Source of the DNA: Halorarum salinum
Lineage (GTDB): Archaea; Halobacteriota; Halobacteria; Halobacteriales; Haloferacaceae
Assembly (NCBI RefSeq): GCF_013402875.1
Contig: NZ_CP058579.1
Location: 3,844,001 to 3,908,000, forward strand
Reading direction: 5' to 3'
DNA: 64,000 bases
Shown here: one piece after another, positions 5,921 to 62,265 of the stretch
Layout: every line of letters starts with the position of its first letter
Position numbering within the stretch: the stretch's first letter is position 1
Notes under the pieces: generated by a model
Seen by the model: only the letters and a program-made list of their open reading frames with translations
The model's database searches: none
What the model was told of the DNA's origin: nothing
Program-made: the position numbers and the translations under genes

Positions 5921-6160
5921 GGCACGAAAGTCCCGCCCCGGGGACGGTCGGCCAGCCATCGCGGTGGCTCCCCGCCCCTCCCCGGCGGGCGCGGCCTCGC
6001 TCCCTCGCGACGCTCGGTCGCTCGCCGTGCGCCCGCCGCATCCCTCCGACCGTCGGCCGGCGAACGCCCCGCTGGACTACCGACGGCGTCTGCGAGCGGT
6101 AGTCGGGCTTCCCCCTTCGTTCGGCCGGAAAGCCGGCCGGGCGGGAAGAGGGGGACGCGA
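5921..6160. repeat. Composite intergenic repeat, copy 1 of 2
   Basis: The 429-base gap between rpl40e and the thioredoxin gene holds no credible gene. The block 5941-6108 matches 57351-57518 base for base in length and at roughly 85-90 percent of positions by eye. Homology continues to the right through a hairpin (GGCCGG-AAAG-CCGGCC, 6123-6138). A weak inverted copy of the GGGCGGGACT box of the other repeat family lies at about 5931-5945. No coding content; role unknown. Confidence 0.75.
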
Positions 6161-13586: not shown

Positions 13587-14163
13587 TCTCTTGGCATCAC
13601 GTCGTCGGCTTCGGCCCATATCCCTTTCCATCGAACTGGAGGGATTCGGCGGCGTCCCCGCGCGGAGCGGGTGGGTTTCGACGAGGCCGCCGGGCGGTCG
13701 ACGGACCGACGCCCGTCCTACCAGGTCACGAGGTGATCGACCGACCGCGGTGGCGCGCGCGAGCAACGCGTGCGAGGGACGAGAAGCACAGCGGGAGTGA
13801 CCGGAGGGAACGAACGCGAGCATCGCAGGAGGCTGGGGAGGACGAGGTGCGGTGCGGTCGGGCGGGACTGAAAGGGGCCGCGGCTGTCGGCTCGGGAGAC
13901 CGTGCCTGCGCTCCTCGACTCGCTTCACTCGTCTGCGGTGCTTGTCGGGTCCGCCAGCGCCGACAGCCGCGGGGGCTTTCGGGAACTCTGGCGCGACGAC
14001 CGGCCCGACCACCGAGCCGACAGCCGCAGGGGCTTTCGAGGACTCCGTCACGACGATCGACCCTGTCACGACGACCGACCGAACCAGCCAGTCGGCAGCC
14101 GCGGACGCCCTCGACGACGAACCCCACGGAGCCTTTTTCGCCGAGTAACCCCACTAGAGGGGC
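13587..14163. other. Intergenic region between leuS and a small membrane protein gene
   Basis: A 577-base gap between divergent genes. No gene is visible. Most of it (13772-14040, continuing weakly to ~14110) is a copy of the structured repeat family described separately. The last ~35 bases hold a T-rich promoter element (GCCTTTTTCG, about 14131-14140) 28 bases before the downstream ATG. Confidence 0.7.
13772..14040 (+). repeat. Structured intergenic element, copy A
   Basis: Plus-orientation copy. It starts at GCGAGGGACGAG (13772), has the left box GACTGAAAGGGGCC (13866-13879), the left stem GCGGCTGTCGGC (13880-13891), a 67-base spacer, the right stem GCCGACAGCCGC (13959-13970; 12 of 12 complementary) and the right box GGGGGCTTTC (13971-13980). 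The right stem plus box is repeated 57 bases later (14016-14040), and a decayed third right arm occurs near 14091-14102. No coding content. Confidence 0.8.
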
Positions 14164-14382
14164 ATGAGCGAGTCCGCCGAGTCCGACGAGCCCGGCGTGC
14201 TGAAGCGGACCTACCGGACGGTGACGCCGGGCTACCGGGGCCGCGAGGACGTCGAGATGAACGCGATCGGGTGGGGGATCCTCCTCGGCCTCGTGCTCAT
14301 CCTCATCCCGCTGCTGCCGTTCATCGTCATCGTCTGGTTCGTCGGGAAGGTGCTGGAGGCAGTCACCCCCAGCGGGGAGTAG
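14164..14382 (+). CDS. Small single-span membrane protein
   Basis: A 72-residue haloarchaeal protein with a polar N-terminus containing a conserved-looking RTVTPGYRGREDVEMNAIGW segment and one long hydrophobic helix (about 37-62) with a short polar tail. It resembles the DUF7535 type of small membrane proteins, from memory. Function unknown. A T-rich element 28 bases before the ATG suggests leaderless transcription. It is convergent with the alanine dehydrogenase gene, with 67 bases between the stops. Confidence 0.7.
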   Translation: MSESAESDEPGVLKRTYRTVTPGYRGREDVEMNAIGWGILLGLVLILIPLLPFIVIVWFVGKVLEAVTPSGE

Positions 14383-14449
14383 CGTCGCCGTTTGCCCGCC
14401 GGGGGCGGGGGCCCCTCGCCGAACGCCGACCACGGATCGGCTCGAACGC

Positions 14450-15442
14450 TCAGTCCGCCAGGCCGAGCAGGTCGAACGGGTAGCCGTTGTCCCGCTCGTT
14501 CGCGTGCTCGTAGACGACGTGGGCGGCCGCGACGTCCTGGATCGCCAGCCCGGTCGAGTCGAACACCGTGACGCCGTCCGAGTCGGTCCGGCCCGCCTTC
14601 TCCCCGACGACGATCTCGCCGAGCGCGCCGTAGATGTCGTCGTCGCCGAGAACGCCCGCCGTGTACGGGACGTTGATCTCGCCCGAGTGGGTCGTCTGTG
14701 CGTGGTCGTCGATGACCAGTTTGGCGTCGAGCAGCAGGTCGTCCGCGAGTTCGTGTTTCCCCTCCGCGTCGGCGCCCATCGCGTTGACGTGGGTGTGCTC
14801 GCCCACCGCGTCGCGGGGGACGATGGGGTCCTCGACGGGCGTCACCGTCGAGAGCACGTCACAGGATGCCGCCTCGGCGATGGAGCCCGCGCGCACGTCG
14901 AACCGACCCTCGAAGGCGTCGACGAACCGGGCGACGCGCTCCTCGTCGAGGTCGGAGACGACGACCGTCTCGACGTCCCGAACCGTGGCGATGGCCTCCA
15001 GTTGCGTGTACGCCTGGGCGCCGGCGCCGACGATGCCGAGCGAGGTGGCGTCCGCAATCGCGAGGTGGTCGGTGGCGACGGCGGCGGCCGCGCCCGTGCG
15101 CTTCATCGTCAGTTCGGTCCCGTCGAGGATGGCGAGCGGGAACGCGTTGCTGGGGTCCGAGTAGATCATCGTTCCCATCACCGTCGGGAGGTCGTACTCC
15201 TCCTCGTTGTCGGTGTGGACGTTCACCCACTTCACGCCCGCGGCGTCCCAGTCGCCCGCGTCGAGGTAGGCCGGCATCGATCGGAAGTCCCCGTTGTACT
15301 GCGGGAGGTCGATGTAGGACTTGGGCGGCATCTGGGCGTCCCCGCGCTCGTAGGCGGCGAACGCCTCCTCGATGGCCGGCACGAGCTCCGCCATCTCGGC
15401 GTTCTCGTGGACCTCGGCGCCGTTGAGCAGCAGCGTCTCCAT
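14450..15442 (-). CDS. Alanine dehydrogenase / ornithine cyclodeaminase family enzyme
   Basis: An NAD-dependent enzyme of the OCD/mu-crystallin family. The central Rossmann motif LGIVGAGAQA (about 135-144), the substrate Lys in KWVNVHTDN and MKRTGAAAAVATDHLA segments, and the GADAEGKHEL loop are present. Archaeal members act mainly as alanine dehydrogenases (L-alanine to pyruvate plus ammonia), so that role is more likely than ornithine deamination, but the substrate is inferred. 330 residues, normal. A perfect palindrome lies between the TATA-like element and the start codon (see operator entry). Confidence 0.85.
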   Translation of the reverse strand: METLLLNGAEVHENAEMAELVPAIEEAFAAYERGDAQMPPKSYIDLPQYNGDFRSMPAYLDAGDWDAAGVKWVNVHTDNEEEYDLPTVMGTMIYSDPSNAFPLAILDGTELTMKRTGAAAAVATDHLAIADATSLGIVGAGAQAYTQLEAIATVRDVETVVVSDLDEERVARFVDAFEGRFDVRAGSIAEAASCDVLSTVTPVEDPIVPRDAVGEHTHVNAMGADAEGKHELADDLLLDAKLVIDDHAQTTHSGEINVPYTAGVLGDDDIYGALGEIVVGEKAGRTDSDGVTVFDSTGLAIQDVAAAHVVYEHANERDNGYPFDLLGLAD

Positions 15443-15443
15443 G

Positions 15444-15460
15444 CGCGCAAAATTTGCGCG
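15444..15460 (-). promoter_or_regulatory. Palindromic operator at the alanine dehydrogenase start
   Basis: On the coding strand CGCGCAAATTTTGCGCG ends one base before the ATG: 8-bp perfect arms around a single base. A TATA-like TTCTAATCC lies just upstream (about 15464-15473), about 27 bases before the ATG, so the palindrome fills the space between TATA and a leaderless start, a classical repressor position. The same sequence with one change lies before the M32 carboxypeptidase. Confidence 0.65.
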
Positions 15461-15743
15461 GCGGGATTAGAACCCTCCGATAGCGCCCGCGACCGAGCGG
15501 GCGACGCGTGGGACGCGGAGCCGCCCCCGCCGTGACGGCCGTCGAGCCCTCGTCCTGACCGTCGTGACCGCGCACGGGTCCCGGTTCGGCCGGCCCGCCC
15601 ACCGGGACTACGTCCGCACGGACTCCACCCGAGTCCGGCGATTAACTCGCCTTAATCGGGCTGACCGGGCGCCGAATCCGTCCGAATTCCGGTACGGCGT
15701 CTCCACCCCCCATTACCCTCCGGTCGGAAGCGGCGGGTGTAGC

Positions 15744-16061
15744 ATGACACCGAAGAAGTTCGTCGCAGTCGCGCTCGCAGCACTGCTCGTGACCGCCGGC
15801 GCGGCCGCCGCGGCCGCACCCGGTAACGGATCCGGAAACGGCACGGACGACGCCGGGAACGGCGACGGGGCACGGGGGCCGCCGAGCGACCTCCCCGGAC
15901 CGGTGCCCGACTTCATCTCGGGCGTCCACGACGCGATCGACTCGTTCCTCGACGGCGACCTGACCGGCTCGCTCGGCGAGGCCGTCCCGGGCATCGCGGG
16001 CGGGGGGAACGGCGACGAGGGTGACGCGAACGCCGACGCCGACGACGGCGCCGAGGCGTGA
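15744..16061 (+). CDS. Secreted acidic Gly/Asn-rich protein
   Basis: A 105-residue product with a clear Sec-type signal peptide: MTPKKF, then a hydrophobic Ala/Val/Leu core to about residue 20 and an Ala-rich cleavage region. The mature part has Gly/Asn/Asp repeats (GNGSGNGTDDAGNGDG), a short ordered stretch with Phe-Ile-Ser and Phe-Leu (about 58-75), and an acidic tail. No family recognised; extracellular or cell-surface location is inferred. ATG at 15744 gives the signal peptide at the N-terminus. Confidence 0.7.
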   Translation: MTPKKFVAVALAALLVTAGAAAAAAPGNGSGNGTDDAGNGDGARGPPSDLPGPVPDFISGVHDAIDSFLDGDLTGSLGEAVPGIAGGGNGDEGDANADADDGAEA

Positions 16062-16350
16062 GGCGACCGTTGACGGCGGCTCGCTGAACTGACCGCAGAC
16101 CGGATCTTCCGACCGCGCCCGTCCGACCGTTCCATTCCCGTCGTTCGACCGATTCCAGTTGCTATCGGTCGACCGGTTCCGGTCGCCGTCGGCCATCCGC
16201 TTCGACGGTCACGGTCCGACCCCTTCCGACTACTACGCTCCCTGGGCAGCATCGCTGTCGGACTCGCGGGCCGCGAAAGAAGGTTCGAGCGTTCGGGAGA
16301 CGGTGCGACGGAGTCGGCGGTCGGTGTGGGTGGCGTGTCTCGGTCGACGC
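16062..16350. other. Intergenic, low-complexity, no gene seen
   Basis: Lies between convergent genes. It contains loose imperfect repeats of TCGACCG/GGTTCCGG-type words (about 16140-16200). I see no gene, promoter or clean terminator. Confidence 0.4.
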
Positions 16351-18021
16351 TTACATCGCGCCGCCCATGCCACCCATGCCGCCCATGCCGCCCATGCCGC
16401 CGCCGGGGGCACCGCCCTCGTCGCCGTCGCCCTCGGTGGAGAGGTCGCCGGCTGCGATGATGTCGTCGATCTTGAGGACCAGGTTCGCCGCCTCGGTGGC
16501 CGAGGAGAGCGCCTGCTCCTTCGAGTGGGCCGGCTCGACGACGCCCGCCTCGAACGTGTCAACGACGTCGCCCGAGAACACGTTCAGGCCGGCGTTCGGG
16601 TCGCCGCCCTCGTGGGCCGCGCGGAGGTCGACCAGCGTGTCGATGGAGTCGAGCCCGGCGTTCTCGGCGAGCACGCGCGGGACGAGTTCGAGCGCGTCGG
16701 CGAACGCCTCGACCGCGAGCTGCTCGCGGCCCTCGACGGAGTCGGCGTAGTCGCGGAGCCGAGAGGCGAGTTCGACCTCGATGGCGCCGCCGCCGGGGAG
16801 CACGCGGCCGTCCGAGACCGTGGTCGCGACGACGTCGAGCGCGTCCTGAACGCCGCGCTCGAGTTCGTCGACGACGTGGTCCGTGGAGCCGCGCAGGAGG
16901 AGCGTGACGCCGTGGGCCTCGTCGCCGCCCTCGACGTAGAACAGTTCGTCCTCGTCGTCACGGGCGACCGAGCCGTGGCCGAGGTCGTCGGCGGTCGCCG
17001 ACTCGACGTCGGAGACGATGGCGGCGTCGAGGATGTTCTGGAGGAAGCCCAGGTCGGACTTCTTCACGCGTCGGGCCGCGAGGATGCCCTCCTTCGCGAG
17101 GTAGTGCTGGGCCATGTCGTCGATGCCCTTCTGGCAGAAGACGACGTTCGCGCCGGTCGCCTTGATGGCCTCGACCTTCGCGCGGAGCTGCTCCTCCTCT
17201 TGGTCGAGGAACTGCTGGAGCTGGTCCGGGTTCTCGATGTTGACGGAGGTGTCGACGTCGGCCTCCTCGACCTCGATCGGGTCGTTCAGCAGGAGCACCT
17301 TCGCGTCCTCGACGCCCGTGGGCATGTCGTCGTGGACGGGGTCCTTGTCGACGACCGCGCCCTGTAGGAGTTCGGACTCGCCGGCCGAGCGGCCGGTCTG
17401 GGTCTCGATCTCGACGTTCTCCAGGTCGACGACGTGGCTGCCGTCGTCCGCCTCGACGGTGACCTGCTGGACCGCGCGGTAGATGAGGTCGGCGAGGACC
17501 TCCTTCTCCAGCTCCGCGCCCTTGCCGGTCATCGACGTCTCGGCGACCTTCTTGATGCGCTCCTCGTCGTCGTGGTCGACGTGCTCCGCGATGTCGTCGA
17601 CCTCGGCGCGGGCCTGCTCGCTCGCGAGGTGGAAGCCCTTGATGATCGCCGTCGGGTGGATCTCCTGCTCGATGAGGTCCTCGGCGTTCTTGAGGAGTTC
17701 GCCCGCGATGGCGACGGCGGTCGTCGTCCCGTCGCCGGCCTCGTCCTCCTGGGTCTCGGCGACCTCGATGATCATCTCGGCGGTCGGGTTGTCGATGTCC
17801 ATCGTCGTCAGGATGGTGACGCCGTCGTTCGTGATGGTGACGTCGCCCATCGAGTCGACGAGCATCTTGTCCATGCCCTTCGGGCCGAGCGTCGAGCGCA
17901 CGGCCTCCGCGACGGCGCGCGCCGCCGAGATGTTGTACTCCTGAGCGTCCTTGTCCTTCACCCGCTGGGAGTCCTCGCCCATGATGATCATGGGCTGACC
18001 CTGCATTCGTCGCTGACTCAT
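16351..18021 (-). CDS. thsA: Thermosome subunit (group II chaperonin)
   Basis: A subunit of the two-ring ATP-driven protein-folding chaperonin. Visible: [12 protein letters not shown] (44-54), the ATP-site motif GDGTT (96-100), [11 protein letters not shown] in the C-terminal equatorial domain, and the flexible tail of repeated Gly-Gly-Met typical of haloarchaeal subunits. 556 residues, normal. The ATG at 18021 is preceded by a strong GGAGGTGA and a near-consensus TATA box. Other thermosome subunits are expected elsewhere in the genome. Confidence 0.97.
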
Positions 18022-18332
18022 GGTCACCTCCGAATGAGGTTGTGATTCTATATAAAACTTTGGTTGCCGTCCGACGGCGTGGCGCTCGGGCCGATCGGAT
18101 CGAACGAGCGAAAGCGGAAGACTCGGACGGGGCGTTATGTGCTAATCTGTACCACACCGTTCGGGCCGACGGCCGGCGAACGACGAGCGAGCGCCTCCTT
18201 TAAGTGCGAGCGGACGACGGCGGGAGCGGCGGACCCGGCGGACGGACCGTACCCGGCGGACGGACCGCTCGCCGGACGGATCGTCCGCTGAACGGCCGGT
18301 CCACGTCGGACGTTCCGCCCGCCGGAGGGGCC
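18022..18332. other. Intergenic region upstream of the thermosome gene
   Basis: Holds the thermosome promoter at its left end. The middle (18070-18200) shows nothing recognisable. The right end (18233-18290) has two exact-length 18-base tandem units (ACCCGGCGGACGGACCGT and a near copy) plus a decayed third, continuing the repetitive character of the neighbouring gene end. Confidence 0.5.
18024..18057 (-). promoter_or_regulatory. Thermosome promoter and Shine-Dalgarno site
   Basis: Read on the minus strand: TTTTATATA (18049-18057) is the best TATA box in the window, preceded by a purine-rich BRE-like stretch, with GGAGGTGA (18024-18031) just before the ATG at 18021. The predicted start site near 18027 would leave only a few leader bases, so the Shine-Dalgarno sequence would be used only if transcription starts slightly upstream. 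Confidence 0.7.
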
Positions 18333-18815
18333 CTACTCGTCGGACGCGCCCCGCCCCGGTCCGCCGGACACGTTCCGCCCCGGGGCGCCGGACGCGTCCC
18401 GCTCCGATCCGCCGGACGCGTCCCGTCCGTCGACTGCCCCCTTCCAGTGGATGCGGACCGTTCCGACCGCGAACGCGTCGGTCGTGTCGGTGTCACGCTG
18501 GATGGCGACGGTGTTCGTCCCCTCGACGAGCGAGGTCCCGGTGAGCGAGTCCGCCCAGTACTGCCACCCGTCGTTCGGCGGGATGTCGAACCCCGAGAGG
18601 GAGTCCCCGTTGACGAGGATCTCGTGTCCGTACTCGGCGACGTCGAACGCCTGAACCCCGACGAACGGGTCCAGCGGCTCGTCGGTCGCCACCTCGAACT
18701 CGAACTCGTCGGTCCGGTCGCCGGCGTCCCGTGCCCAGTCGAGGTCGAGTCCCCGACCCGACGGCGCGAGCTGGGCGCCGACGTAGACGGTGGCGTAGTT
18801 CGCGTGCGTCCGCAT
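18333..18815 (-). CDS. Conserved haloarchaeal protein with repetitive tail
   Basis: A 160-residue protein starting MRTHANYATVYVGAQL. The first ~130 residues have the look of a beta-sandwich: alternating strands, a SGFDIPPNDGWQYW segment, and a final strand FAVGTVRIHWK. I know similar haloarchaeal proteins of unknown function (DUF7383-like, from memory). The last ~28 residues are an 8-residue repeat of pattern [DN]-x-S-G-x-P-G-R, encoded by a 24-base tandem repeat that ends just before the stop. ATG at 18815. Confidence 0.7.
   Translation of the reverse strand: MRTHANYATVYVGAQLAPSGRGLDLDWARDAGDRTDEFEFEVATDEPLDPFVGVQAFDVAEYGHEILVNGDSLSGFDIPPNDGWQYWADSLTGTSLVEGTNTVAIQRDTDTTDAFAVGTVRIHWKGAVDGRDASGGSERDASGAPGRNVSGGPGRGASDE
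18338..18426. repeat. 24-base tandem repeat in a gene 3' end
   Basis: Three full 24-base units (18338-18361, 18362-18385, 18386-18409) and a partial fourth, each built on CGCCGGACGCGTCCCG. They encode the 8-residue repeats at the C-terminus of the gene on the minus strand. Unit number is likely to vary between strains. Confidence 0.75.
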
Positions 18816-18864
18816 CGGTGTACCCTTCGGGGCGACGGATGAAAAGAACAGCCGTTCGTTCGGC

Positions 18865-19038
18865 TCAGTCGTCGAGCGCTTCCGCGGCCGACAGCAGCTC
18901 CGACTCCAGCTCCGCGGGCGGATACTCGGGCTCGTCCTCGGCGTCGATCGTCTCGAGCTCGCGCCGGTTGAGCTGCCGTTCCAGTTGCTCGCGCTTCTTG
19001 CGGCCCTGACGCTCGCGCCCACGTTTCGTGTCTGGCAT
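18865..19038 (-). CDS. Small basic/coiled-coil haloarchaeal protein
   Basis: A 57-residue protein: MPDTKRGRERQGRKKREQLE is strongly basic and is followed by a helical, acidic second half. The charge split suggests binding to nucleic acid or another protein, but no family function is known to me. ATG at 19038. It sits between uvrA (divergent) and the repetitive-tail gene, 49 bases upstream of the latter, and may be cotranscribed with it. Confidence 0.65.
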   Translation of the reverse strand: MPDTKRGRERQGRKKREQLERQLNRRELETIDAEDEPEYPPAELESELLSAAEALDD

Positions 19039-19246
19039 TGACAACCGTGCCAACGCAACCCACAGTTAAGAACCTTTCCGCTCGGCCGGGTCGTCCCCGA
19101 ACGCACCTGTCCGGTCGGCACCCGCCGTGGCCGGACCGACTCCCCACCGTGGTCGCCCGCGCGGCCCGCCCGACCGCGATTCCCGGGTCGCCCCGGGCGC
19201 CGTCGCGTCGACGGACTCGGACCCCCTCCGGCAGCCATGACGCGCC

Positions 19247-19278
19247 GGTTAAGTGTCTCGACCCCCTGCATCGTCGTA
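19247..19278 (+). promoter_or_regulatory. Promoter of the uvrA transcript
   Basis: GGTTAAGTG (19247-19255) has its centre 28 bases before an ATG at 19279, the spacing of a leaderless start. The ATG does not open uvrA but an 18-codon frame that overlaps it. Nothing else promoter-like is closer to the uvrA GTG. Confidence 0.45.
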
Positions 19279-19334
19279 ATGACCGAACGGGTGTCGAGCA
19301 CCCGCGACGCGGTGCTCCGACGGGGTGGTCGGTA

Positions 19335-19335
<1 letters not shown>
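19279..19335 (+). CDS. Putative 18-codon upstream frame coupled to uvrA
   Basis: The ATG at 19279 opens an 18-residue frame (MTERVSSTRDAVLRRGGR). Its stop TAG (19333-19335) shares a base with the GTG start of uvrA (TAGTG). Position relative to the promoter fits a leaderless start. Ribosomes finishing this peptide would be placed on the uvrA start, so it may act as a coupling leader. It could also be chance; no homology is claimed. Confidence 0.35.
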
Positions 19336-22304
<2,969 letters not shown>

Positions 22305-22342
22305 GCGAAACCGGTTTCCCCCGGGTTTCGAGTCCCACGTCC

Positions 22343-22735
22343 ATGCCCGCACGACGGCTCGGCGACCTCGCGTACGCCCTCGCCGGCTGGTTCCTCCTCG
22401 CGCTCGCGCCCGCCGCGGGGGTGATCGAACTGCTCTCGCTCGGCGCCGTCGGCACCGGGCCGGCGTTCGTGCTCGCCGCGCTCGTCGCGGCCCCGCTCGC
22501 GGCGTTCCACTGGCTGGGTCGCCGGTCGGTGGGCCCGCTCGGCGCGATGTTCTTCTGGGCGGTGGCGCTGTCGGTCACCGCCGGCCTGCCGCTCGCGTTC
22601 CTCCTCGACAGGTTCGCTGTCGGGGGCGGGCTCGGCGCCCCGGCGGTGCGGCTCGCGTTTCTCGCGGTCGTGTACGCCGGCGCGTACGTCGTCGGCGTCC
22701 GGCGACGGTCCGACGGGTTCGCGGTCCGGCCGTGA
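22343..22735 (+). CDS. Membrane protein of unknown function
   Basis: A 130-residue hydrophobic protein with about four membrane spans (approx. 10-30, 38-55, 62-85, 100-120), short loops with Arg residues and a basic C-terminus. It starts at ATG 22343, 38 bases after the uvrA stop, and may ride on the uvrA transcript. I do not recognise the family. Composition is that of a native haloarchaeal gene. Confidence 0.65.
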   Translation: MPARRLGDLAYALAGWFLLALAPAAGVIELLSLGAVGTGPAFVLAALVAAPLAAFHWLGRRSVGPLGAMFFWAVALSVTAGLPLAFLLDRFAVGGGLGAPAVRLAFLAVVYAGAYVVGVRRRSDGFAVRP

Positions 22736-22799
22736 GCGGCCGACCACCTCCCCCCGAGTCGACGCGAGGCTTTTGTGACTGTCACGCACAGTTCCACGC

Positions 22800-23810
22800 A
22801 TGGTCACCGCCTACGCCGCCATGCGCGACCGCTTCCTCGCGGCCGACCCCGACGCGGGGACGACCGTCTCGACGGCCCTCGACGGCCGGTCGCTGGAGTG
22901 CGTCGCCGTCCACCCCGACCGGTCCGAACGCGTCTTCGTCGGCACCTTCGAGTCCGGCCTCCGCCGGTCGACCGACGGGGGACGGTCCTTCGAGCGCGTC
23001 GACGACTTCCCCCACGACGCCGTGATGTCGGCCGCCGTCTCCCCGCACGACCCGGAGGTCGTGTGGGCCGGCACGGAGCCCTCGCGGGTGTACCGCTCCG
23101 CGGACGGCGGCGATTCGTGGACCCACCTCGACGGCCTCGTCGACCTCCCGTCGAGCGACGACTGGTCGTTCCCGCCCCGACCCCACACCCACCACGTCCG
23201 CTGGCTCGAACCCGACCCCGCGGACCCCGACCGCTGGTACGTCGCCATCGAGGCGGGGGCGCTCGTCCGGACCCGCGACGGCGGCGCGACGTGGGAGGAC
23301 CGCGTGCCGGGCTCCCGGATCGACAACCACTCGCTCGTCACCCACGCCGACGCCCCGGGGCGGGCCTGGGTCGCCGCCGGCGACGGCTACGCCGAGACCG
23401 ACGACGGGGGCGACGGCTGGCGACACCCCCAGAGGGGGCTCGACAGGACCTACTGCTGGAGCGTCGCCGTCGACGAGCCGGCCGAGGACGGCGCGAATCG
23501 CGTTCTGGTCTCGGCCGCGCGCGGCGCGTACGAGGCCCACAGGGCCGAGCGCGCCGAGACGTACGTGTACCGCCGCGAGGGTGACGGCGACTGGGAACGG
23601 CTCGACGACCGAGGACTCCCGCTCGGGAAGGGCGTCACGCGGCCGGTGCTCGCACGGTCCCCCTCGGACCGACCGGGCAGGTTCTACGCCCTGTCGAACC
23701 GCGGGCTGTTCCGGACGGCCGACGCGGGCGACTCGTGGGACGCCGTCGGCGTCGACTGGCCCGACCGCTTCGCCGACCAGACGGCCCGCGGGCTGGCGGT
23801 AGTTCCCTAG
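22800..23810 (+). CDS. BNR/Asp-box beta-propeller protein
   Basis: A 336-residue protein built of repeated blades of sialidase or VPS10 type. Asp-box motifs of form S-x-D-x-G-x-x-F/W recur: STDGGRSFE (~58), SADGGDSWT (~100), TRDGGATWE (~157), ETDDGGDGW (~200) and TADAGDSWD (~312). There is no signal peptide, so it is probably cytosolic. Such propellers are often annotated as glycosyl hydrolase-like but no catalytic residues can be named. CTTTTGTG 28 bases before the ATG is a plausible promoter. Confidence 0.8.
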   Translation: MVTAYAAMRDRFLAADPDAGTTVSTALDGRSLECVAVHPDRSERVFVGTFESGLRRSTDGGRSFERVDDFPHDAVMSAAVSPHDPEVVWAGTEPSRVYRSADGGDSWTHLDGLVDLPSSDDWSFPPRPHTHHVRWLEPDPADPDRWYVAIEAGALVRTRDGGATWEDRVPGSRIDNHSLVTHADAPGRAWVAAGDGYAETDDGGDGWRHPQRGLDRTYCWSVAVDEPAEDGANRVLVSAARGAYEAHRAERAETYVYRREGDGDWERLDDRGLPLGKGVTRPVLARSPSDRPGRFYALSNRGLFRTADAGDSWDAVGVDWPDRFADQTARGLAVVP

Positions 23811-24060
23811 ACTACGGCCGACTCGCTCCCGGTTCACCCCGGCGGACGCTCCCACGGTTTCAAGGCACGGAACGGGACCATCGTCGTCGATGACGTAGCC
23901 GGCGACCGGACGGCGTGGAGCGGGTGCGCGACGCGTCGCCGTCCGGAGGGGAGCGTCGCCCGCACGCCACGACCCGGGGTCCGAACCGACGGTGGCACGT
24001 CGGACCGGGACCCGTCCCGCGAACCACGAGACATATCTCCCTCCGCGCACAGCCGGAAGT

Positions 24061-25140
24061 ATGTACGATTTCGTCGTGGTCGGCGTCGGCCCGGCGGGGG
24101 CGCGGTTCGCCCGGCGCGCGGCCGAGTCGCGATACGACGTGCTCGCGCTGGAGAAGGGCGAGGTCGGGACGCCCCTCGCCTGCTCGGGCCACGTCTCCAC
24201 GGACGTCTGGAACTACGTTCCCGAGGGGGCGCGGGAGGACCTGTTCCAGAACCGCGTCTACGGCGCGGAGTTCCACGTCGGCGGCCCCGACGGGGACGGC
24301 TACCGGTTCTACAAGCGCGAGGAGGTGTCGAACGTCATCGACCGCGTCGAACTCGACCGGACGCTCGCGGACGCCGCCCGGGAGGCCGGCGCGGACGTGC
24401 GGGAGGGCCACACCGTCACGAGCGTGGAGGAGCGGGCCGGCCACGTCGCCGTCACCGCCAGCGTCGGCGGCGCCGAGCGCACCTTCGAGGCCCGGATGGT
24501 CGTCGGCGCCGACGGCCCGGTCTCCCGGGTCCGCCGGGGGCTCGGCCTCCCGGAGCCGGACGAGACGCTCCACGGGGTGCTCGCGTTCGACGAGGAGCCG
24601 GACGGCGGCGACTACGTCTCGGTCCACCTCACCGCGCCGCGCTTCTTCGCCTGGCGCATCCCCCGCGGCGACGCCGGCGTCGAGTACGGCCTCGCCGCGC
24701 CGCCGGGCCACGAGGTGAACGAGCTGTTCGACGAGCTCACGGACGCCTACGACGTGGAGACGGACCACTTCTGTTCGGGCGCCATCCCCATCGGCCCGCC
24801 CGAGCGGACGACCGCCACACGGGGGTTCCTGATCGGCGACGCCGCCGCCCAGACGAAGCCGTTCACCGGCGGCGGCATCCTCTACGGGATGCGCGCGGCC
24901 GACGTCGCCGCCGACGTGGTCGACCCCGAGGACCCCACGACGCTCCCGCGCTACGAGGAGGCGTGGCGCGACGAGCTGGAACGTGAGATCCGGTTCGGCC
25001 ACTGGATCCGACGGGCCTACTCGCTGCCGGAGCCGGTCCAACGTGCGGGGCTGTGGGCGCTCTCGGGAGAGATCGGCGTCCACATGGACGAGCCGAGTTC
25101 GTTCTTCTCGCGCGAGCACCTTCGAAAGTTGTTCTCCTGA
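24061..25140 (+). CDS. Geranylgeranyl reductase family FAD protein
   Basis: An FAD-dependent reductase that hydrogenates isoprenoid chains, most likely digeranylgeranylglycerophospholipid or a related lipid. Features: N-terminal dinucleotide motif VGVGPAGARFA (7-17), the PLACSGHVS segment (about 38-46) typical of the family's substrate region, VGADGPVSRVRR (~150), and GFLIGDAAAQTKPFTGGGI (~257), the second FAD motif. 359 residues from ATG 24061. Haloarchaea have several paralogues, so the exact lipid substrate is not certain. Confidence 0.88.
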   Translation: MYDFVVVGVGPAGARFARRAAESRYDVLALEKGEVGTPLACSGHVSTDVWNYVPEGAREDLFQNRVYGAEFHVGGPDGDGYRFYKREEVSNVIDRVELDRTLADAAREAGADVREGHTVTSVEERAGHVAVTASVGGAERTFEARMVVGADGPVSRVRRGLGLPEPDETLHGVLAFDEEPDGGDYVSVHLTAPRFFAWRIPRGDAGVEYGLAAPPGHEVNELFDELTDAYDVETDHFCSGAIPIGPPERTTATRGFLIGDAAAQTKPFTGGGILYGMRAADVAADVVDPEDPTTLPRYEEAWRDELEREIRFGHWIRRAYSLPEPVQRAGLWALSGEIGVHMDEPSSFFSREHLRKLFS

Positions 25141-25205
25141 GGGGGCATGGAATCGTTCGTCCCTTCGGTGTCGACGGTGTGACGGCCACAGTCGGCGAGA
25201 AGTCC

Positions 25206-25400
25206 CCGGAAGCCCCCGCTCGCTGACCGAGCCCCGACGACGCAAGCACTGGAGCCGAGGGAGCGAAGTCGTTCGAAACGGCGAAGCCGTTTCGTGATGA
25301 CGAGAGGCGCGAAGCGCCTCTCGAACCACGACCGAGGTGAAGCGCGCAGCGAGCGGCCCCTTCCACTCCCACCCGGAAGTCAGTCGGGGTCGTCCCTCGC
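25206..25400 (-). repeat. Structured intergenic element, copy E
   Basis: Minus-orientation copy between convergent genes. Read on the minus strand it starts with GCGAGGGACGA (25390-25400), lacks most of the 5' module, and has a diverged left box (AGTGGAAGGGGCC), stem CAGCGAGC/GCTCGCTG (25347-25354 with 25218-25225) and right box GGGGGCTTCC. The spacer carries two perfect hairpins: CGAAACGGC-GAA-GCCGTTTCG (25274-25294) and CGAGAGGCGC-GAA-GCGCCTCTCG (25301-25323). Confidence 0.75.
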
Positions 25401-25426
25401 CGGAGAATCGGCTTCGTCGCCGGCGG

Positions 25427-26530
25427 TCACTCGGGGTACGTCGGGAGCCGGGCCGAGTCTGCGCTTCCCTCGACGAAGGGGAGGTCGACGCGTTCTGCGG
25501 CCACCTCGTCGCCGCCGACGCGGACGGTCAGGTTGCTTCCGTCGGAATCGAAGTCGACGAACGCGAGCGCGACGGGGGCGTCGAGCGTCGGCGACTCGAC
25601 GGCGCGGGTCACCTCGCCGACCGCGGCGTCGCCGTCGAACACCGCGGCGCCGGAGTCGGGGAGCTCCTCGGGCCGAAGCCCGACCAGCCGACGGCTCGGC
25701 CGGCCGCGGTTCTCCACCTTCGAGACGACCTCCTGGCCGACGAAACAGCCCTTCTCGTAGTCCACGGCGTTCCGGAGGCCGACGACGTTCGGGAGTCTGC
25801 CCTCGAGCTCGGACTCGAACTGCGGCGTTCCGGCTTCGAGGGTGAGCGCGTCCCAGGTCCGGTAGCCGAACGGCGCGGCGTTCAACCCCCGCGTCAGGAG
25901 GGTGTCGAACACGTCCTCGGCGTCGGCGGCCGCACAGATCACCTCGTACCCCTCCTCGCCGAGCGGCGCGTCCGCCGCGACGACGGTGACGCCGATGTCC
26001 TCCTCGGGACCGCCGTCGATTCGCCCGCGAACGAACGAGAGCGCGGGTTCCGGCGCGCCGGCACCGTTCAGCACGGAGGCGACCTTCTCAGTGGCGTTGT
26101 GGCCGTGGACGCCGAACACGCCGAACTCGTCGCTCGCGTCCCGGAGTTCGACGTCGTCGATGAACACCTTCCCCGACCAGTCCTCGACGAGTGGCCCCGC
26201 CCGGTCCGGCGGCGTGAAAAGCAGGAGCCGCTCGCCGGCGTTGTAGACGTACATGTCCGTCTCGACGGCGCCCTGCGGGTCGAGCAGCAGCGCGTACGTC
26301 CCCTCGCCGTCGGTCGTCGGCACGCGGTTCGAGACCGCGTTGTCGACGAAGTCGACGCGGTCGTCGCCCTCGACGACCACGACGCCGTACCCCATCTCGA
26401 TCGCCCCGACGCCGTTTCGTACGGCCCGCGCCGCACTGTCCGGGCGCCCGTAGTGGGCGACGACCTCCCGGCCGCCGCGCTCCTCGAACGTCGCGCCGTG
26501 GTCCTCGTGGACGTCAGCGACCAGACTCAT
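25427..26530 (-). CDS. ygfZ: YgfZ/GcvT-type folate-binding protein
   Basis: A 367-residue protein of the aminomethyltransferase (GcvT) fold. The motif KGCFVGQEVVSK (about 264-275) is the signature K-G-C-x-x-G-Q-E of YgfZ/CAF17 proteins, which use folate in assembly or repair of 4Fe-4S enzymes; true GcvT lacks this Cys. Two domains are seen: a GcvT N-domain (1-~250) and a small C-terminal barrel beginning RLVGLRPEE. It is convergent with the geranylgeranyl reductase gene, with repeat copy E between the stops. Confidence 0.87.
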   Translation of the reverse strand: MSLVADVHEDHGATFEERGGREVVAHYGRPDSAARAVRNGVGAIEMGYGVVVVEGDDRVDFVDNAVSNRVPTTDGEGTYALLLDPQGAVETDMYVYNAGERLLLFTPPDRAGPLVEDWSGKVFIDDVELRDASDEFGVFGVHGHNATEKVASVLNGAGAPEPALSFVRGRIDGGPEEDIGVTVVAADAPLGEEGYEVICAAADAEDVFDTLLTRGLNAAPFGYRTWDALTLEAGTPQFESELEGRLPNVVGLRNAVDYEKGCFVGQEVVSKVENRGRPSRRLVGLRPEELPDSGAAVFDGDAAVGEVTRAVESPTLDAPVALAFVDFDSDGSNLTVRVGGDEVAAERVDLPFVEGSADSARLPTYPE

Positions 26531-26620
26531 GGCCCCGCGTACGGCCCCGGCATCAAAAGGCCCCCCGGTCGACCGGCGACCGGCGACCGGCGACGTCGCG
26601 GTGACGGTCGACCGACGAGA

Positions 26621-26920
26621 TCACAGCCCGAACCGGTCCCTGATCGTGTCGAGGAGCCCCGCGTCGTCGTCCGGAACCTCGCCCGGGTCGGGGACCACCC
26701 TGTCCTCGGGGAAGATCCTGACGCGTTCGCCGTCGTCGTTCACCTCGATGAGCCCGTCGTCCTTCAGGGTCGCGAGCGCGCCCTCCAGTTCGTCGATGCC
26801 GGCGTCCACGCCCGAGCGGAGTTCGAGGACGGTCATTCCCTCGTCGGCCCTTGCGACGAGCGCGTCGAGGACGGCGACCTCCACGTCCGCACGGTCGCGG
26901 AACTCCGACCGCGCCTTCAT
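26621..26920 (-). CDS. Small winged-helix-like protein (DUF6432 type)
   Basis: A 99-residue acidic protein. Residues 10-70 read as a winged helix: VAVLDALVARADEGMTVLEL, then a recognition-like helix (DELEGALATLKDDGLI) and a wing (DGERVRIFPE). This could bind DNA, but no partner is known. The assignment to DUF6432 is from memory. ATG at 26920; divergent from the zinc-finger protein gene starting at 27027, so both promoters lie within the 106 bases between. Confidence 0.7.
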   Translation of the reverse strand: MKARSEFRDRADVEVAVLDALVARADEGMTVLELRSGVDAGIDELEGALATLKDDGLIEVNDDGERVRIFPEDRVVPDPGEVPDDDAGLLDTIRDRFGL

Positions 26921-27026
26921 ACGCGGGGTATCGGCGGGCGCCGGTTTACGTGTACCGGCGTCACCGTCTGTCGGGCGTCAGACGGTGAGGGAACCCTTTT
27001 GTCCACGAAGCCGGTGTTGGTCGGTA

Positions 27027-28313
27027 ATGGGACTCAGGTGCCTGCTCGGTCACGACTTCACGGAGCCGACGGCCGAGCGAGAGCGCGAGGAACGGGGGGA
27101 CGAGGTCGTCGTCACCATCAGGGAGGTGAAGGAGTGCCGACGCTGCGGGGAGACGCAGGTGATCACCGAGAACACGGAGGTCACGTCCGTCGACCGGCCG
27201 GCCGACCGGGGCCGGAGCGGAGCGGAGCCGAACACGGGGTTGTTCTCGGGGGAACCCGACGCGGGCGGCGCCGGCACGAGCGACTTCGACGCGGGCGGCC
27301 GGTCCGGCGTGCGCGTCGACGAGGCCGAGGCCACCGACATCGACGAGGGGTTCGACCACCCGCACGGGGATCCGGAGGACGTGGACCCGTCGATCGAGAA
27401 CGACGCCGAGATCATCAGGGAGGGTCCCTCCGACGCCCCGGAGGAACCGTCCGGCGCCCCGTCCGGGGAACCCGACGTCGGGTCCCGAGCGCGTGACGCC
27501 CACGACGAGGAGGGGGCCGAACGGGCCGCCGAGTCGACGGTCGCGGACGCCGAACCCGCCGGGAACCCCGAGCGCGGCCACGGGGAGTGGCCCGACGCCG
27601 ACCGCAAGGACGCGGCGGGTGCGGACGAGGAGGCGACCGGCTCTCGCGGCGGGTGGCCCGACCCGGACGGAGCCGACCGCACCGCTCGCGACGGGGCCGT
27701 CGACAGCGAGGGGTCCGCGGCCAGCGAGGCCCGCACCGGGGTCGTCTCCGGCGACGAACGGGACGGGGCCGGCGGAACGGCCGCGACCGGGGACGAGGAC
27801 GTCGAGTTCATCGACGCCGACGGACGGGACGACGCGGACGGACCGGGCGCCTGGCCCGACCAGACGGGCGAGGACGAGGGATTCGACGCCGAGGTGGGAA
27901 CCGGCGGGTCGGACGGGGACGTCACCGTCGACGGGAACCTCACCCCCCGGGTGAACCCCGACGCCGACCCGGGGGAGGACGTCGAGTTCATCGAGGCGGA
28001 GTCCTCGAACGCCTCGACCAGGGAGTCCCGGCCGTCGCCCGGCGTCTCGCCGACCGGGGGTTCGGACGACCCGTCGAGTTCGGCCACCTCGCCGACCGGG
28101 CCGGCCAGGAACGGAACGTCCAGCGGCGGCGCGGCGGACCGCTCCTCACGGAGCCACGAGGTCGAGTTGACCACGACCGTGGGGGACCGCGAGACGGAGT
28201 ACGTCTGCCCGAAGTGTGGCGCGCGCGAGCGCGTCGGCGCCTCCTCCATGCGGGCGGGCGACATCTGCCCCGAGTGCAAGCGGGGCTACATCGAGGAGCG
28301 GGAACTGGAGTAG
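27027..28313 (+). CDS. Haloarchaeal protein with terminal zinc fingers and acidic disordered middle
   Basis: A 428-residue protein in three parts. The N-terminus (1-55) is a treble-clef-like module with Cys4, His9 and CRRCG. Residues ~60-370 are a long Asp/Glu/Gly/Ser low-complexity linker that must be disordered, including three acidic VEFI-D/E-A motifs. The C-terminus has a zinc ribbon CPKCG-x(16)-CPEC. Similar proteins are annotated as DUF7093 in haloarchaea, from memory. Function unknown; ribosome or RNA association is possible but unsupported. Confidence 0.7.
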   Translation: MGLRCLLGHDFTEPTAEREREERGDEVVVTIREVKECRRCGETQVITENTEVTSVDRPADRGRSGAEPNTGLFSGEPDAGGAGTSDFDAGGRSGVRVDEAEATDIDEGFDHPHGDPEDVDPSIENDAEIIREGPSDAPEEPSGAPSGEPDVGSRARDAHDEEGAERAAESTVADAEPAGNPERGHGEWPDADRKDAAGADEEATGSRGGWPDPDGADRTARDGAVDSEGSAASEARTGVVSGDERDGAGGTAATGDEDVEFIDADGRDDADGPGAWPDQTGEDEGFDAEVGTGGSDGDVTVDGNLTPRVNPDADPGEDVEFIEAESSNASTRESRPSPGVSPTGGSDDPSSSATSPTGPARNGTSSGGAADRSSRSHEVELTTTVGDRETEYVCPKCGARERVGASSMRAGDICPECKRGYIEERELE

Positions 28314-28548
28314 CTCCCCGGTCACCCCCAGCGAAGTTCCAAATCCAGTTCTCCAACGTCCCGTCCTCCGGTCGGTTCCGTTCTCAGTCCGGTCCTTCCG
28401 CTCTGCCCGCCCCGTCGCTCCGTGCATCCCCGTTCCGGTCCAGTTCGTTCACGTCGGACTCGCCACCCCGGAGCGTGCGACGGGTGCACACGGGACGCCC
28501 GTCACGTCTGACGAAACTCGTTTAGGGACCCCTGCCGAACGGGTGGCC

Positions 28549-28932
28549 ATGAAGCAGTACAAGATGCGCCGCGGAGAGCACCTCGAGGACCGGATGCCGG
28601 ACCTGAAGGGCGAGATCGAGGAGCGGTTCGGGCCGGTCTCCGGCACCGAGGAGCACGACGGCCACGAACTGTACGTCGTCGAGGAGCCCGACAACCCCGT
28701 CTTCGATCGGATCCTCGCCGGTGCAGCCTCCTACTCCGGCAAGAAGGACAAGCTCGCGGTCCACTTCGAGGAGCGACCGGCCGAGGAGGTCATCGCGGAG
28801 GGGAACGCCGACGCCGCTGCCGACGCCGTGGACGCCAAGAACTCCTTCCTGCTCGACGCCACGGGCCGGGACGCGAAGTCGCGCCGCGAGTCGCTGAAAC
28901 GCGAGGTCGAGGACGACGCGCCCGACTACTGA
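28549..28932 (+). CDS. DUF5611 family protein
   Basis: A 127-residue archaeal protein starting MKQYKMRRGEHLEDRMPDL, characteristic of a small family (DUF5611, from memory) of unknown function. Pattern: basic N-terminal strand, amphipathic helix, a beta region with HELYVVEEPDNPVFDRIL, and a charged C-terminal helix. Soluble, no metal motif. The ATG at 28549 follows a TTTAGG element at about 24 bases. Confidence 0.75.
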   Translation: MKQYKMRRGEHLEDRMPDLKGEIEERFGPVSGTEEHDGHELYVVEEPDNPVFDRILAGAASYSGKKDKLAVHFEERPAEEVIAEGNADAAADAVDAKNSFLLDATGRDAKSRRESLKREVEDDAPDY

Positions 28933-29354
28933 TTCTGGGCTCGTGTGGCCATTCAGTACCGGAGAGTCGGTAGCGACTGCACGACCTGCTCGTTAGCCCC
29001 GGAAGCCTCCGCCGCTCCCGACCCGTGGATCGATTCGGGTATCGTGGTGCGGTTCCCGAAGCCCCTGCGGCTGTCGACTCGGTAGACTGCTGCGCTCCTC
29101 GCTCCCTCCGGTCGCTGCGGTGCTTGGCGGTCCGTTCCTTCGCCGACCCACTGGAGAGCACGCTCTCCCGAGTTCAGGGCGCACGCGCCCGTGAAAGCCG
29201 CAGCCCCTTTCAGTCCGGCCCGGACCGCACCTCGCCCTCCCGTACCTCGGAGCACCCTCCTCGGAAACTCACCCCCGCTCGCAGGCTCGCTCGCGTGACC
29301 GAGGCGCGGCCGCAGTTCGCCACGACCCGTCGTCCCGACCGTAGTAACCCGGAA
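28933..29354. other. Intergenic between convergent DUF5611 and SDR genes
   Basis: No gene visible. Positions 29053 to about 29280 are copy D of the structured element in minus orientation. The flanks (28933-29050, 29281-29354) show nothing recognisable. Confidence 0.6.
29053..29280 (-). repeat. Structured intergenic element, copy D
   Basis: On the minus strand: left box GACTGAAAGGGGCT (29202-29215), outer stem AGCCGC/GCGGCT (29196-29201 with 29067-29072; weaker pairing beyond) and right box AGGGGCTTCGGG (29055-29066). The spacer has two hairpins: GGGCGC-AC-GCGCCC (29177-29190, extended by TTCA/TGAA) and GGAGAG-CACG-CTCTCC (29153-29168). Part of the 5' module (GGAGGGCGAGGTGCGGTCC-like) is recognisable to about 29245. 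Confidence 0.75.
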
Positions 29355-30089
29355 TCAGAGCCGCTCCGGCAGATACCCCCCGTCGACCTCCACGTTCTCG
29401 CCCGAGACGTACCCCGACTCCTCCAGCAGGAAGAAGGAGAGCACGTTCACCAGGTCCTCGACGGACGCCCACCGGCCCCGGGGGGCGTCCTCGGGGAACG
29501 CGTCGGAGGTCTCGACCACGTACGGCGAGACGGCGTTCACGGTGACCCCGTCGTCCTGGGTGTCGGCCGCGAGCATGCGCGTGAACATCAGCACGCCCGT
29601 CTTGGCGATGAAGTAGGGCGCGTTCTTCGGGTGGACCATCGACTTCCCGCTGCCGGCGTAGCCCACGTTGACGATGCGCCCCCACCCCCTCTCGCGCATC
29701 CCCGGCAGCGCGCGCTTCGAGCAGAGGTACGTCCCGTTGACGTTCGTGTGGAGGACGGTCTGCCACGTCTCGAACGGGATGTCCGCCCAGTGTTCCGGCG
29801 CGAACGCGCCGACGTTGTTCACGAGCACGTCGACGCCGCCGAGTTCGGACTCGACGTCCGCGAACAGGCCCTCCACCGCGTCCGGGTCGGTCACGTCCCC
29901 CTGGACCGTCGTCGCCGCGACGCCGCGCTCGCGGGCCTCCTCGGCCGTCGCCTCCGCCTCCGCGCCGCTCGTCCGGTAGTGGACCGCCACGTCGGCGCCG
30001 TACTCCGCGCACGCGAGCAGGAAGCCGCGGCCGATCCCCGTCGCGCTGCCGGTGACGAGGGCGGTCCGCCCGGTCAGGTCCGGTTCCAT
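29355..30089 (-). CDS. Short-chain dehydrogenase/reductase
   Basis: A 244-residue NAD(P)-binding SDR of the FabG-like classical type. Cofactor motif TGSATGIG (13-20), NNVG (91-94) and the active-site Y159-x3-K163 are present. The catalytic Ser expected about 15 residues before the Tyr is not there: the aligned segment reads NVGYAGS, placing Tyr144 at that point with a Ser three residues later. Some SDR subfamilies share this form, so activity is possible but altered. Substrate unknown; convergent with the DUF5611 gene. Confidence 0.85.
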   Translation of the reverse strand: MEPDLTGRTALVTGSATGIGRGFLLACAEYGADVAVHYRTSGAEAEATAEEARERGVAATTVQGDVTDPDAVEGLFADVESELGGVDVLVNNVGAFAPEHWADIPFETWQTVLHTNVNGTYLCSKRALPGMRERGWGRIVNVGYAGSGKSMVHPKNAPYFIAKTGVLMFTRMLAADTQDDGVTVNAVSPYVVETSDAFPEDAPRGRWASVEDLVNVLSFFLLEESGYVSGENVEVDGGYLPERL

Positions 30090-40294: not shown

Positions 40295-40635
40295 GGCGTC
40301 GGGCCACCTGTAACCGCGGTTTTCGCCGCTTTCTCGGACCGCAACCGCGGGCACGAGCACCGCTACCGTGTCCCCGGGAGCCCCCGTTCCCTCATCGGCC
40401 GGGCCTCGCCGTGCTCCTCGTCGCTCGGCTGACGCCCCGTCGCCTCCGGCGCGCGTTCCGACGGGAGCGCACCGGGCGTCGGGCATGTCGCGACCCCTCG
40501 GGGAACCGACCCCTGGCGGACTCACGAAGGGCGAGGGCTTCGTTCCGTGGTTCCATCGAACCGATCGACGGTGTACGCGACTCATCCGACCCCCTTTTCA
40601 CCGACCCGCACACACCGGAACCCGAACGAACCGAA
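40295..40635 (+). other. Intergenic before the methyltransferase gene
   Basis: A 341-base gap without a visible gene. The last ~40 bases hold a T-rich element (CCCTTTTCACC, about 40597-40607) that may be the methyltransferase promoter. A weak resemblance to the AGCCCCC box of the repeat family at about 40380-40386 is not convincing. Confidence 0.4.
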
Positions 40636-52969: not shown

Positions 52970-53359
52970 TCTCGGTTCGTTTCGCGAGAGGGAACCAGCC
53001 GGTCGGCGCGCGCGACGCGAGCCCCCTCGTGGGGCGAGCGCACGCGCGCGAGGGACGAGCACCGTAGTAGAGTGAGCGAAGCGAACGAAACGAGGAGCGC
53101 AGGAGGCTGGGGAGGGTGAGGTGCGGTCGGGCGGGACTGAAAGGGGCCGCGGCTCTCGACGAACGCGGACGACGCAAGCACCGCAGGAGCGAGGCGGAGC
53201 CGAGCGACGAGGAGCACAGCGAGGCCCTGGAGTCGAGAGCCACGGGGGCTTTCGAGGCGTTCTACCCTCGGGGATAACCGCCATTGCGTTCTGCGCGTTC
53301 CGACCGACTGGCCGACCGAACGACACAAGATTCAGGCCGACCCGCCCCGACGACCCCGT
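52970..53359. other. Intergenic inside the cobalamin cluster
   Basis: A 390-base gap between cobY and cobD that holds copy B of the structured element (53048-53256). The last ~70 bases upstream of cobD include AAGATTC-type T/A-richer DNA (53329-53335) about 28 bases before the ATG, a possible promoter for cobD-cbiZ. No gene. Confidence 0.6.
53048..53256 (+). repeat. Structured intergenic element, copy B
   Basis: Plus orientation: GCGAGGGACGAG at 53048, left box GACTGAAAGGGGCC (53135-53148), left stem GCGGCTCTCGAC (53149-53160), 71-base spacer, right stem GTCGAGAGCCAC (53232-53243; 11 of 12 pair) and right box GGGGGCTTTCGAG (53244-53256). The spacer includes the word GCAAGCACCGCAGGAGCGAG, the reverse of the orientation seen in copy A. 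It splits the cobalamin gene cluster. Confidence 0.85.
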
Positions 53360-57186: not shown

Positions 57187-57669
57187 GTCCGGTGGGGTGG
57201 GGTGTCGTCGGGGGCGGCTAAAAAGGGCCGTACTTCGGTCGGGGTTTCTCTAGCGGGTGAGAGGTCGGTTCGGATTTCGGTGCGTCGCTACCGGGACCAC
57301 GATGACGAATGGGTCGAAAGCCTCCAGCGGCCCTTTCGGTCCCGCCCTCTGGGACGGTCGAGCGAGCGTCGCGGTGGCTCCCCGCGCCTCCCCGGCGGGC
57401 GCGGCGTCGCTCCCTCGCGCCGCTCGGTCGCTCGCTGGGCGCCCGCCGCATCCCTCCGACCGTCCACCGGCCGGCGTCACGCCGGACTACCGACGGCGTC
57501 CGCGAGCGGTAGTCGGGCCAGCGCCGCTCGGCCGGGACGCCGGCAGGGTGGGACCGGAAGGGGCTGTGGCCTCCGGTCGCGGGGGTTTCCGGAGCATTCC
57601 GGGTCCACCCGCTGAACAGGAAACGTCGCGCGAACCGACCGCGAAGAATTTGATATCGCGAAATGAAGT
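57187..57669. other. Intergenic between DUF2070 and guaAA
   Basis: No gene visible in 483 bases. It holds the second composite repeat (57311-57597) and, at its right end, the bipartite motif (57646-57676) that overlaps the guaAA stop. The first ~60 bases are the DUF2070 promoter region. Confidence 0.6.
57311..57597. repeat. Composite intergenic repeat, copy 2 of 2
   Basis: It starts with a minimal hairpin form of the GACTGAAAGGGGCC/GGGGGCTTTC boxes in minus orientation (57313-57345: GGGACCGAAAGGGCC with GGAGGCTTTCGACCC), followed by the 168-base block shared with 5941-6108 (57351-57518). It ends with a plus-orientation pair of boxes (GGGACCGGAAGGGGCT at 57550-57565 and GCGGGGGTTTCCGGAG at 57579-57594). 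Thus a family-2 block is flanked by two family-1 box pairs. Confidence 0.7.
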
Positions 57670-61810: not shown

Positions 61811-62265
61811 TCGGGAACCGACCCGACGAAGTCCGGTGAACCGACGGGTCGGCGCGCGGCGGCCGCGCCTCCGTGCGCGGCCGGATCGCGCGAGGGACGA
61901 GCACCGGAGCGAAGTGAGCGAAGCGAACGAAGCGAGGAGCGTAGGAGGCTGGGGAGGGTGAGGCTGCGGTCCGGGCGGGACTGAAAGGGGCCGTGACGCT
62001 CGACGACGTTCACGAGAGCTGCGCTCTCGTGAGCTCACGAGACGCATGGCGTCTCGTGAACGGCGGACCCGTCGAGCACCACGGTGCGAACGAAGTAAGC
62101 GCGAGGAGCGCAGGCGTGGTCCCCCGAGTCGAGCGTCACGGGGGCTTTCGAGGTCGCCGTATTTCGACCATGATGAGGCCGCCCGAGACGGATGCCCTCT
62201 GCTGCCCGGTCCACGGCTCCCTCCACCCCGCACAGATATCACCTCCAACGACGTTGGACCGACCG
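61811..62265. other. Intergenic between cimA and a membrane protein gene
   Basis: A 455-base gap with no credible gene. It holds copy C of the structured element (61890-62152). The last ~40 bases contain CAGATATCACC (about 62232-62242), a possible TATA region 24-30 bases before the downstream ATG. Confidence 0.6.
61890..62152 (+). repeat. Structured intergenic element, copy C (best preserved)
   Basis: Plus orientation: GCGAGGGACGAG (61890-61901), 5' module, left box GACTGAAAGGGGCC (61979-61992), left stem GTGACGCTCGAC (61993-62004), a 123-base spacer, right stem GTCGAGCGTCAC (62128-62139; 12 of 12 pair) and right box GGGGGCTTTCGAG (62140-62152). The spacer has two perfect 10-bp hairpins: TCACGAGAGC-TGC-GCTCTCGTGA (62010-62032) and TCACGAGACG-CATGG-CGTCTCGTGA (62035-62059). 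Confidence 0.85.

Follow-up and report, generated by a model that had tools for sequence, protein, structure and literature searches.

MITEs are usually viewed as ends without content: short, non-coding and bearing terminal repeats only. That usual description does not predict a conserved, covarying core such as the one described here. The IS6-type elements of archaea stand far from their bacterial counterparts, and one ISfinder entry under IS6 is MITEHarch3 (PMC6807381), which may be related to our core. In their likeness to IS6-mobilised haloarchaeal MITEs, cores of other genera lie in units with IS6-type TIRs and 8-bp duplications, whereas the copies in our window (the whole 64-kb stretch of Halorarum salinum DNA analysed) have no TIRs. 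MITEs, PATEs and small mobile repeats have been described in Haloquadratum walsbyi (PMC3119063). Compared by description, the latter two resemble our element in being short, gene-free, palindromic, multicopy, heterogeneous in sequence and haloarchaeal; PATEs, which like the window copies have no TIRs, are tied to IS605-type elements, whereas the window's genus has no Y1 transposase. This same absence sets our element apart from the REP/BIME repeats that work with RAYT (Y1), which are likewise intergenic hairpins in tens of copies and sometimes inverted pairs; moreover our unit, at ~115 nt, contains several internal loops. Short conserved boxes, variable stems and a one-strand fold are shared with integron attC sites, but our cores show no attC end boxes on inspection and are dispersed singly or as head-to-head pairs. 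We consider the element described below to be, with fair probability, a mobile but non-autonomous piece of DNA that is confined to haloarchaea and has a conserved hairpin as its core.

Copies in the window

The sequence-only reading had listed five structured copies between genes, with compensated stem changes. All five were found in place, every one intergenic, and those at 13866, 53135 and 61979 have exactly the left box, stems and opposite arms ascribed to them, with stem positions 4, 6, 7 and 11 compensated and position 2 running C-G, C-A, T-A. The remaining two were correctly located and depart from that pattern, at 25206 by a differing box that amounts to a compensated outer-stem change, and at 29053 by an interruption of the left arm; in the 13866 and 25206 copies the stretch enclosed by the arms runs in the opposite orientation to that of most relatives. 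The list of five was incomplete, since degenerate copies also lie near two further positions (Table 1).

Table 1. Features of the hairpin element in the 64-kb window
Feature	Coordinates	Strand	Remarks
Left module of 61979 copy	61886..61978	+	GCGCGAGGGACGAG..GAGGAGCG..GGCTGGGGAGG..GGGCGG; common to ~35 of 60 genome copies
Left box GACTGAAAGGGGC	61979..61991	+	65 exact genome copies without last C, 61 with
P2 left arm CGTGACGCTCGAC	61992..62004	+	perfect complement of 62128-62140; P2 covaries among copies
Interior	62005..62127	+	nested hairpins (GTTCACGAGAGC..GTCTCGTGAAC) and conserved GAGCACCAC..GAGGAGCGCAG motif
P2 right arm GTCGAGCGTCACG	62128..62140	+	
Right box GGGGCTTTCGAGG	62141..62153	+	
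Copy A core	13866..13984	+	arms 13879-13891 and 13959-13971; interior inverted; matches covariance model on both strands
Copy B core	25204..25368	-	box variant GAGTGGAAGGGGC/CTTCC; interior inverted with nested hairpin pair
Copy C core	29073..29215	-	inserted hairpin pair splits left arm
Copy D core	53135..53257	+	arms 53148-53160 and 53232-53244, one C-A mismatch; 87 bits (covariance model)
Degenerate head-to-head core pair	57312..57600		complete pair at orthologous site in G002
Degenerate copy	5936..6108		87% alike to 57346-57518; complete core at orthologous G001 site
Remnant ACGAAGGGCGAGGGCTTCGT	~40505..40550	+	deletion between arms; complete cores here in G001 and G002

In the 61979 copy the left box pairs with the right box via GAAAG/CTTTC, and homology among genome copies typically stops 10-25 bases into the right-box region. 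The left module is not counted as core because other copies are without it. A structured module of this kind (GTGGCGCG..GCGCGAGGGACGAG..GGCTGGGGAGG) precedes many Haloferacaceae cores, with equivalents of the window's in L062, L064 and L083, and it repeats the core-interior motif GAGCACCGCAG..GAGGAGCGCAG.

Smaller double-hairpin repeats (GTGGTTCGAGAG..CTCTCGTCATCACGAGAG..CTCTCGAACGAC; GTTCACGAGA..TCTCGTGAAC) are nested in cores, their position agreeing among several copies, and have conserved boxes of their own and variable loops (window 62007-62062, 25270-25330 and 29150-29195; further loci L020, L039, L043, L044, L070, L078 and L079). Downstream of about half the genome's cores are degenerate right arms (GAGCCGACAGCCGCGGGGGCTTTCGG) with no left boxes, at a period of ~57 bases (for example L004, L010, L018 and window 13985-14041). 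Elsewhere in the window, 2027-2089 matches the eL15-Euryarchaeota ribosomal protein leader (Rfam, above gathering score).

Copy number, placement and distribution

Exact matches to the 12-base box GACTGAAAGGGG number 65 across the 4.26-Mb genome (28 forward, 37 reverse; none for the reversed control), and all 65 fall outside predicted genes. Neighbouring genes, called approximately by a codon-usage script, were oriented nearly at random: both co-directional with the element in 21 cases, convergent in 15, both opposite in 14 and divergent in 13. A gene-orientation argument for an untranslated-region element was ruled out by this lack of bias.

A covariance model gave 52 matches in this genome. 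Of six Halobacteriales genomes sampled it found cores in five, and the 44 genomes from elsewhere in the phylum yielded none. That is, relatives do hold further copies. The count is roughly 50-70 cores apiece in four genomes: this one (G000), G001 and G002 of the same genus, and G030. Across 84,980 species genomes a scan returned at least 120 stretches and, among the matches listed (80), all were haloarchaeal. Viral contigs and phage records gave zero matches to the core pattern or sequence; haloarchaeal plasmids gave 10 matches, with no annotated repeat beneath any. Rfam had nothing at gathering score (best E at a loose threshold 0.32, to unrelated families), and among open-access papers we found none describing the boxes or core, which is not proof of novelty.

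Fold and covariation

The core, of ~115 nt, reads GACTGAAAGGGGC - P2 - GAA/GA loop - P3 - YAAGCACC...GAGGAGCGCAGCG - P3' - P2' - GGGGCTTTC, and comprises an outer stem (GAAAG/CTTTC), an invariant GGG/GGG internal loop, the variable P2 of 11-13 bp, further short stems and conserved unpaired motifs. RNAalifold folded 92 cores from many genera into a single long hairpin of 32 pairs, 24 of which show changes on both sides; the unpaired motifs are conserved across many genera as well, and RNA fold z-scores ran from -3.6 to -7.1. A second interior type has the same boxes with a different inner fold, variable stems and a conserved CCCTAT..ATATGTC internal motif; it was seen mostly in Halorussus (second-type loci L133, L155, L156, L164, L169, L185 and L218), and at L234 a type-1 and a type-2 core are paired within one MITE.

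When 129 cores were placed on the covariance model, 96.8% of cells were paired, with 887 two-sided changes vs. 258 for shuffled cores; none of 500 shuffles matched the real pairing on any measure, and sliding the register by 1-3 columns dropped pairing to 34-44%. As fitting to the model shaped this alignment, the anchored arms give a safer estimate; they were 93% Watson-Crick over 11 positions, for 173 distinct arm pairs and 159 distinct left arms. The outer stem, fixed by the exact-box search, also covaries in variants that come from synteny (GAAAG/CTTTC, GGAAG/CTTCC and CGAAG/CTTCG). Pairing independent of sequence, first proposed from the window copies, is thus borne out in far more copies and in relatives, by the covariance model, the shuffles and the orthologous sites described below. 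The accompanying proposal, that the pairing is under selection, is likely in view of the strand-specific wobble excess and the unpaired motifs conserved across genera; it falls short of proof, since arms could stay matched through template switching or conversion from copy to copy as well.

A fold shared equally by both DNA strands should yield G.T and A.C pairs in equal number. On the box strand the anchored arms gave 59 G.T vs. 24 A.C; with related arms collapsed the counts were 41 vs. 23 (P = 0.03), and the model alignment gave 119 vs. 26, two columns supplying nearly half of the 119. From this excess the fold is probably specific to the box strand, with support that is only moderate because related copies are non-independent. 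DNA folding energies did not separate the two strands.

Orthologous sites and turnover

Among the three congeneric species, 18 core pairs share both flanks. Scoring of 16 of these pairs gave 69 differing arm positions: in 53, matching changes in the two arms keep a Watson-Crick pair in both species, wobble preserves 7, and 9 are broken in one species; part of these differences likely come from conversion between copies, because some are wholesale stem replacements. The congeneric species differ in which sites are occupied. Within the window region site B alone is kept in all three, with orthologous cores in the two others; G001 lacks elements at sites A, C, D and E, and G002 has one at E that carries a different stem. 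The window's genus gave no clean empty/filled site, divergence at the empty sites being too great for junction placement. Deletions between arms produce fused remnants, and 11 of 146 cores carry their interior inverted.

An inversion in G002 relative to window 13638-29365 (L100-L109) has both ends at the intergenic sites of elements A and C. We do not claim that elements drove it, because none remains at those ends in G002.

IS6-type ends in other genera

Inverted repeats around the core showed no overall excess over mismatched flanks; from this survey a recurrent TIR emerged, the IS6-type GGTAGTGTTCAGATAAG, found in 54 of 195 genomes (control 0). The same TIR bounds 697-bp elements with perfect 8-bp duplications, whose protein is of the IS6 family (NCBIfam, 187 bits vs. 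a cut-off of 125). In other genera, 26 exact-box cores lie between both TIRs, the duplications agreeing at 6 or more of 8 bases in nine (0.88 expected) and perfectly in three, and MITEs with perfect duplications contain the core with a variant box. TIR-flanked units with the core span about 200-380 bp; those around the 26 exact-box cores, of about 202-305 bp, hold no transposase gene because they are too short for a protein of ~210 aa. Among 139 cores of other haloarchaea, an IS6-type 3' end lies near +45 in 24 (at most 1 in controls), and 30 are arranged as head-to-head pairs that share a short palindrome at the centre. The TIR-flanked copies of other genera behave as IS6-type MITEs, and the IS6 link is demonstrated there only.

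In the window's genus the IS6 TIR was not found, a weak 3' TIR-like match being present in 3 of 105 copies and homology stopping just past the right box; the window copies, having no IS6 ends, are therefore not filed as IS6 MITEs. IS6 genes are present in G000 and G001, mostly broken. In G002, G021 and G201, despite many cores, there is no recognisable IS6 transposase, so IS6 is not maintaining the cores there. Furthermore, an IS6 transposase requires only ends, so that retention of the core fold stays unexplained by IS6. No Y1 transposase (PF01797) occurs in G000, G001, G002 or G030, which rules it out as mobiliser in the window's genus.

Interpretation

The sequence-only reading had offered three identities, a structured RNA, a non-autonomous transposable element or a recombination substrate. 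The mobile element fits best, on the evidence of the IS6-type ends and 8-bp duplications in other haloarchaea, and the window copies are best read as resident copies of such a hairpin-based non-autonomous mobile DNA element. Units with IS6-type ends would have been spread by an IS6-family transposase acting in trans; copies in the window's genus may descend from such units, having lost their ends, and would now persist, swap sequence and vanish by deletion between the arms. The weakest step in this scheme is that the fold would work as a DNA hairpin of the single-stranded box strand and not as a read-through RNA. A related possibility, which we regard as unlikely, is that the core is a self-standing module: the folded single DNA strand would be recognised by a putative haloarchaeal protein, and the boxes and loops would be conserved by that recognition, not by an IS6 transposase, allowing both stem exchange and several unrelated mobile contexts.

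Stem swaps, interior inversion and arm slippage are typical accidents of DNA hairpins. All are seen here, whole stems having been swapped among sites (the arm CGGCTGGCTAC occurs at seven places), interiors inverted between the arms and fused remnants left by slippage, as would be expected of a neutral quasi-palindrome whose arms are rewritten by template switching or inter-copy conversion with no selection on the fold. We think this unlikely, as it predicts equal G.T and A.C, in conflict with the excess that persisted after related arms were collapsed, and leaves the unpaired motifs conserved over many genera unexplained. The inversions and swaps, together with constant boxes, variable stems, a strand-specific fold and the coincidence of the G002 rearrangement ends with sites A and C, would also suit a recombination substrate that is recognised while folded as single-stranded DNA, as integron attC sites are, or the REP hairpins used by Y1 transposases. 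Against it stand the lack of Y1 transposase in G000, G001, G002 and G030, at roughly 50-70 cores each, and of attC-type GTTRRRY/RYYYAAC end boxes, none of which was seen by inspection of the core alignment; no cassette array or candidate recombinase was noticed either, and we rate this reading improbable.

The fold z-scores, strong covariation and G.U excess on one strand would also be expected of a structured RNA, that is, a small RNA or untranslated-region element kept for its RNA fold, and head-to-head pairs would give one sense copy in either reading direction. Nevertheless Rfam gave no match, the position of the element relative to genes is inconsistent, and on informal reading no promoter-like sequence was noticed upstream of the window-copy boxes. 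Read-through RNA would moreover predict decay of antisense copies, yet intactness was 49 of 79 for copies with a co-directional gene upstream vs. 49 of 70 for the rest (P = 0.39), and 26 of the 35 copies antisense to both neighbours were intact. This orientation-independent intactness argues against read-through RNA and favours a DNA-level role or independent transcription; a structured RNA is accordingly disfavoured, and to our mind distinctly improbable.

In the mobile-element reading, what the family offers is a haloarchaea-wide case in which a large, covarying and probably strand-specific hairpin is retained across many genera, even in some genomes without a recognisable transposase. It is one for Rfam, ISfinder and annotators to take up, being currently unlabelled in the matched plasmid records, and the element is a marker for genome rearrangement in Halobacteria. 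The family makes it possible to test for selection acting on a DNA (or RNA) fold among archaeal repeats.
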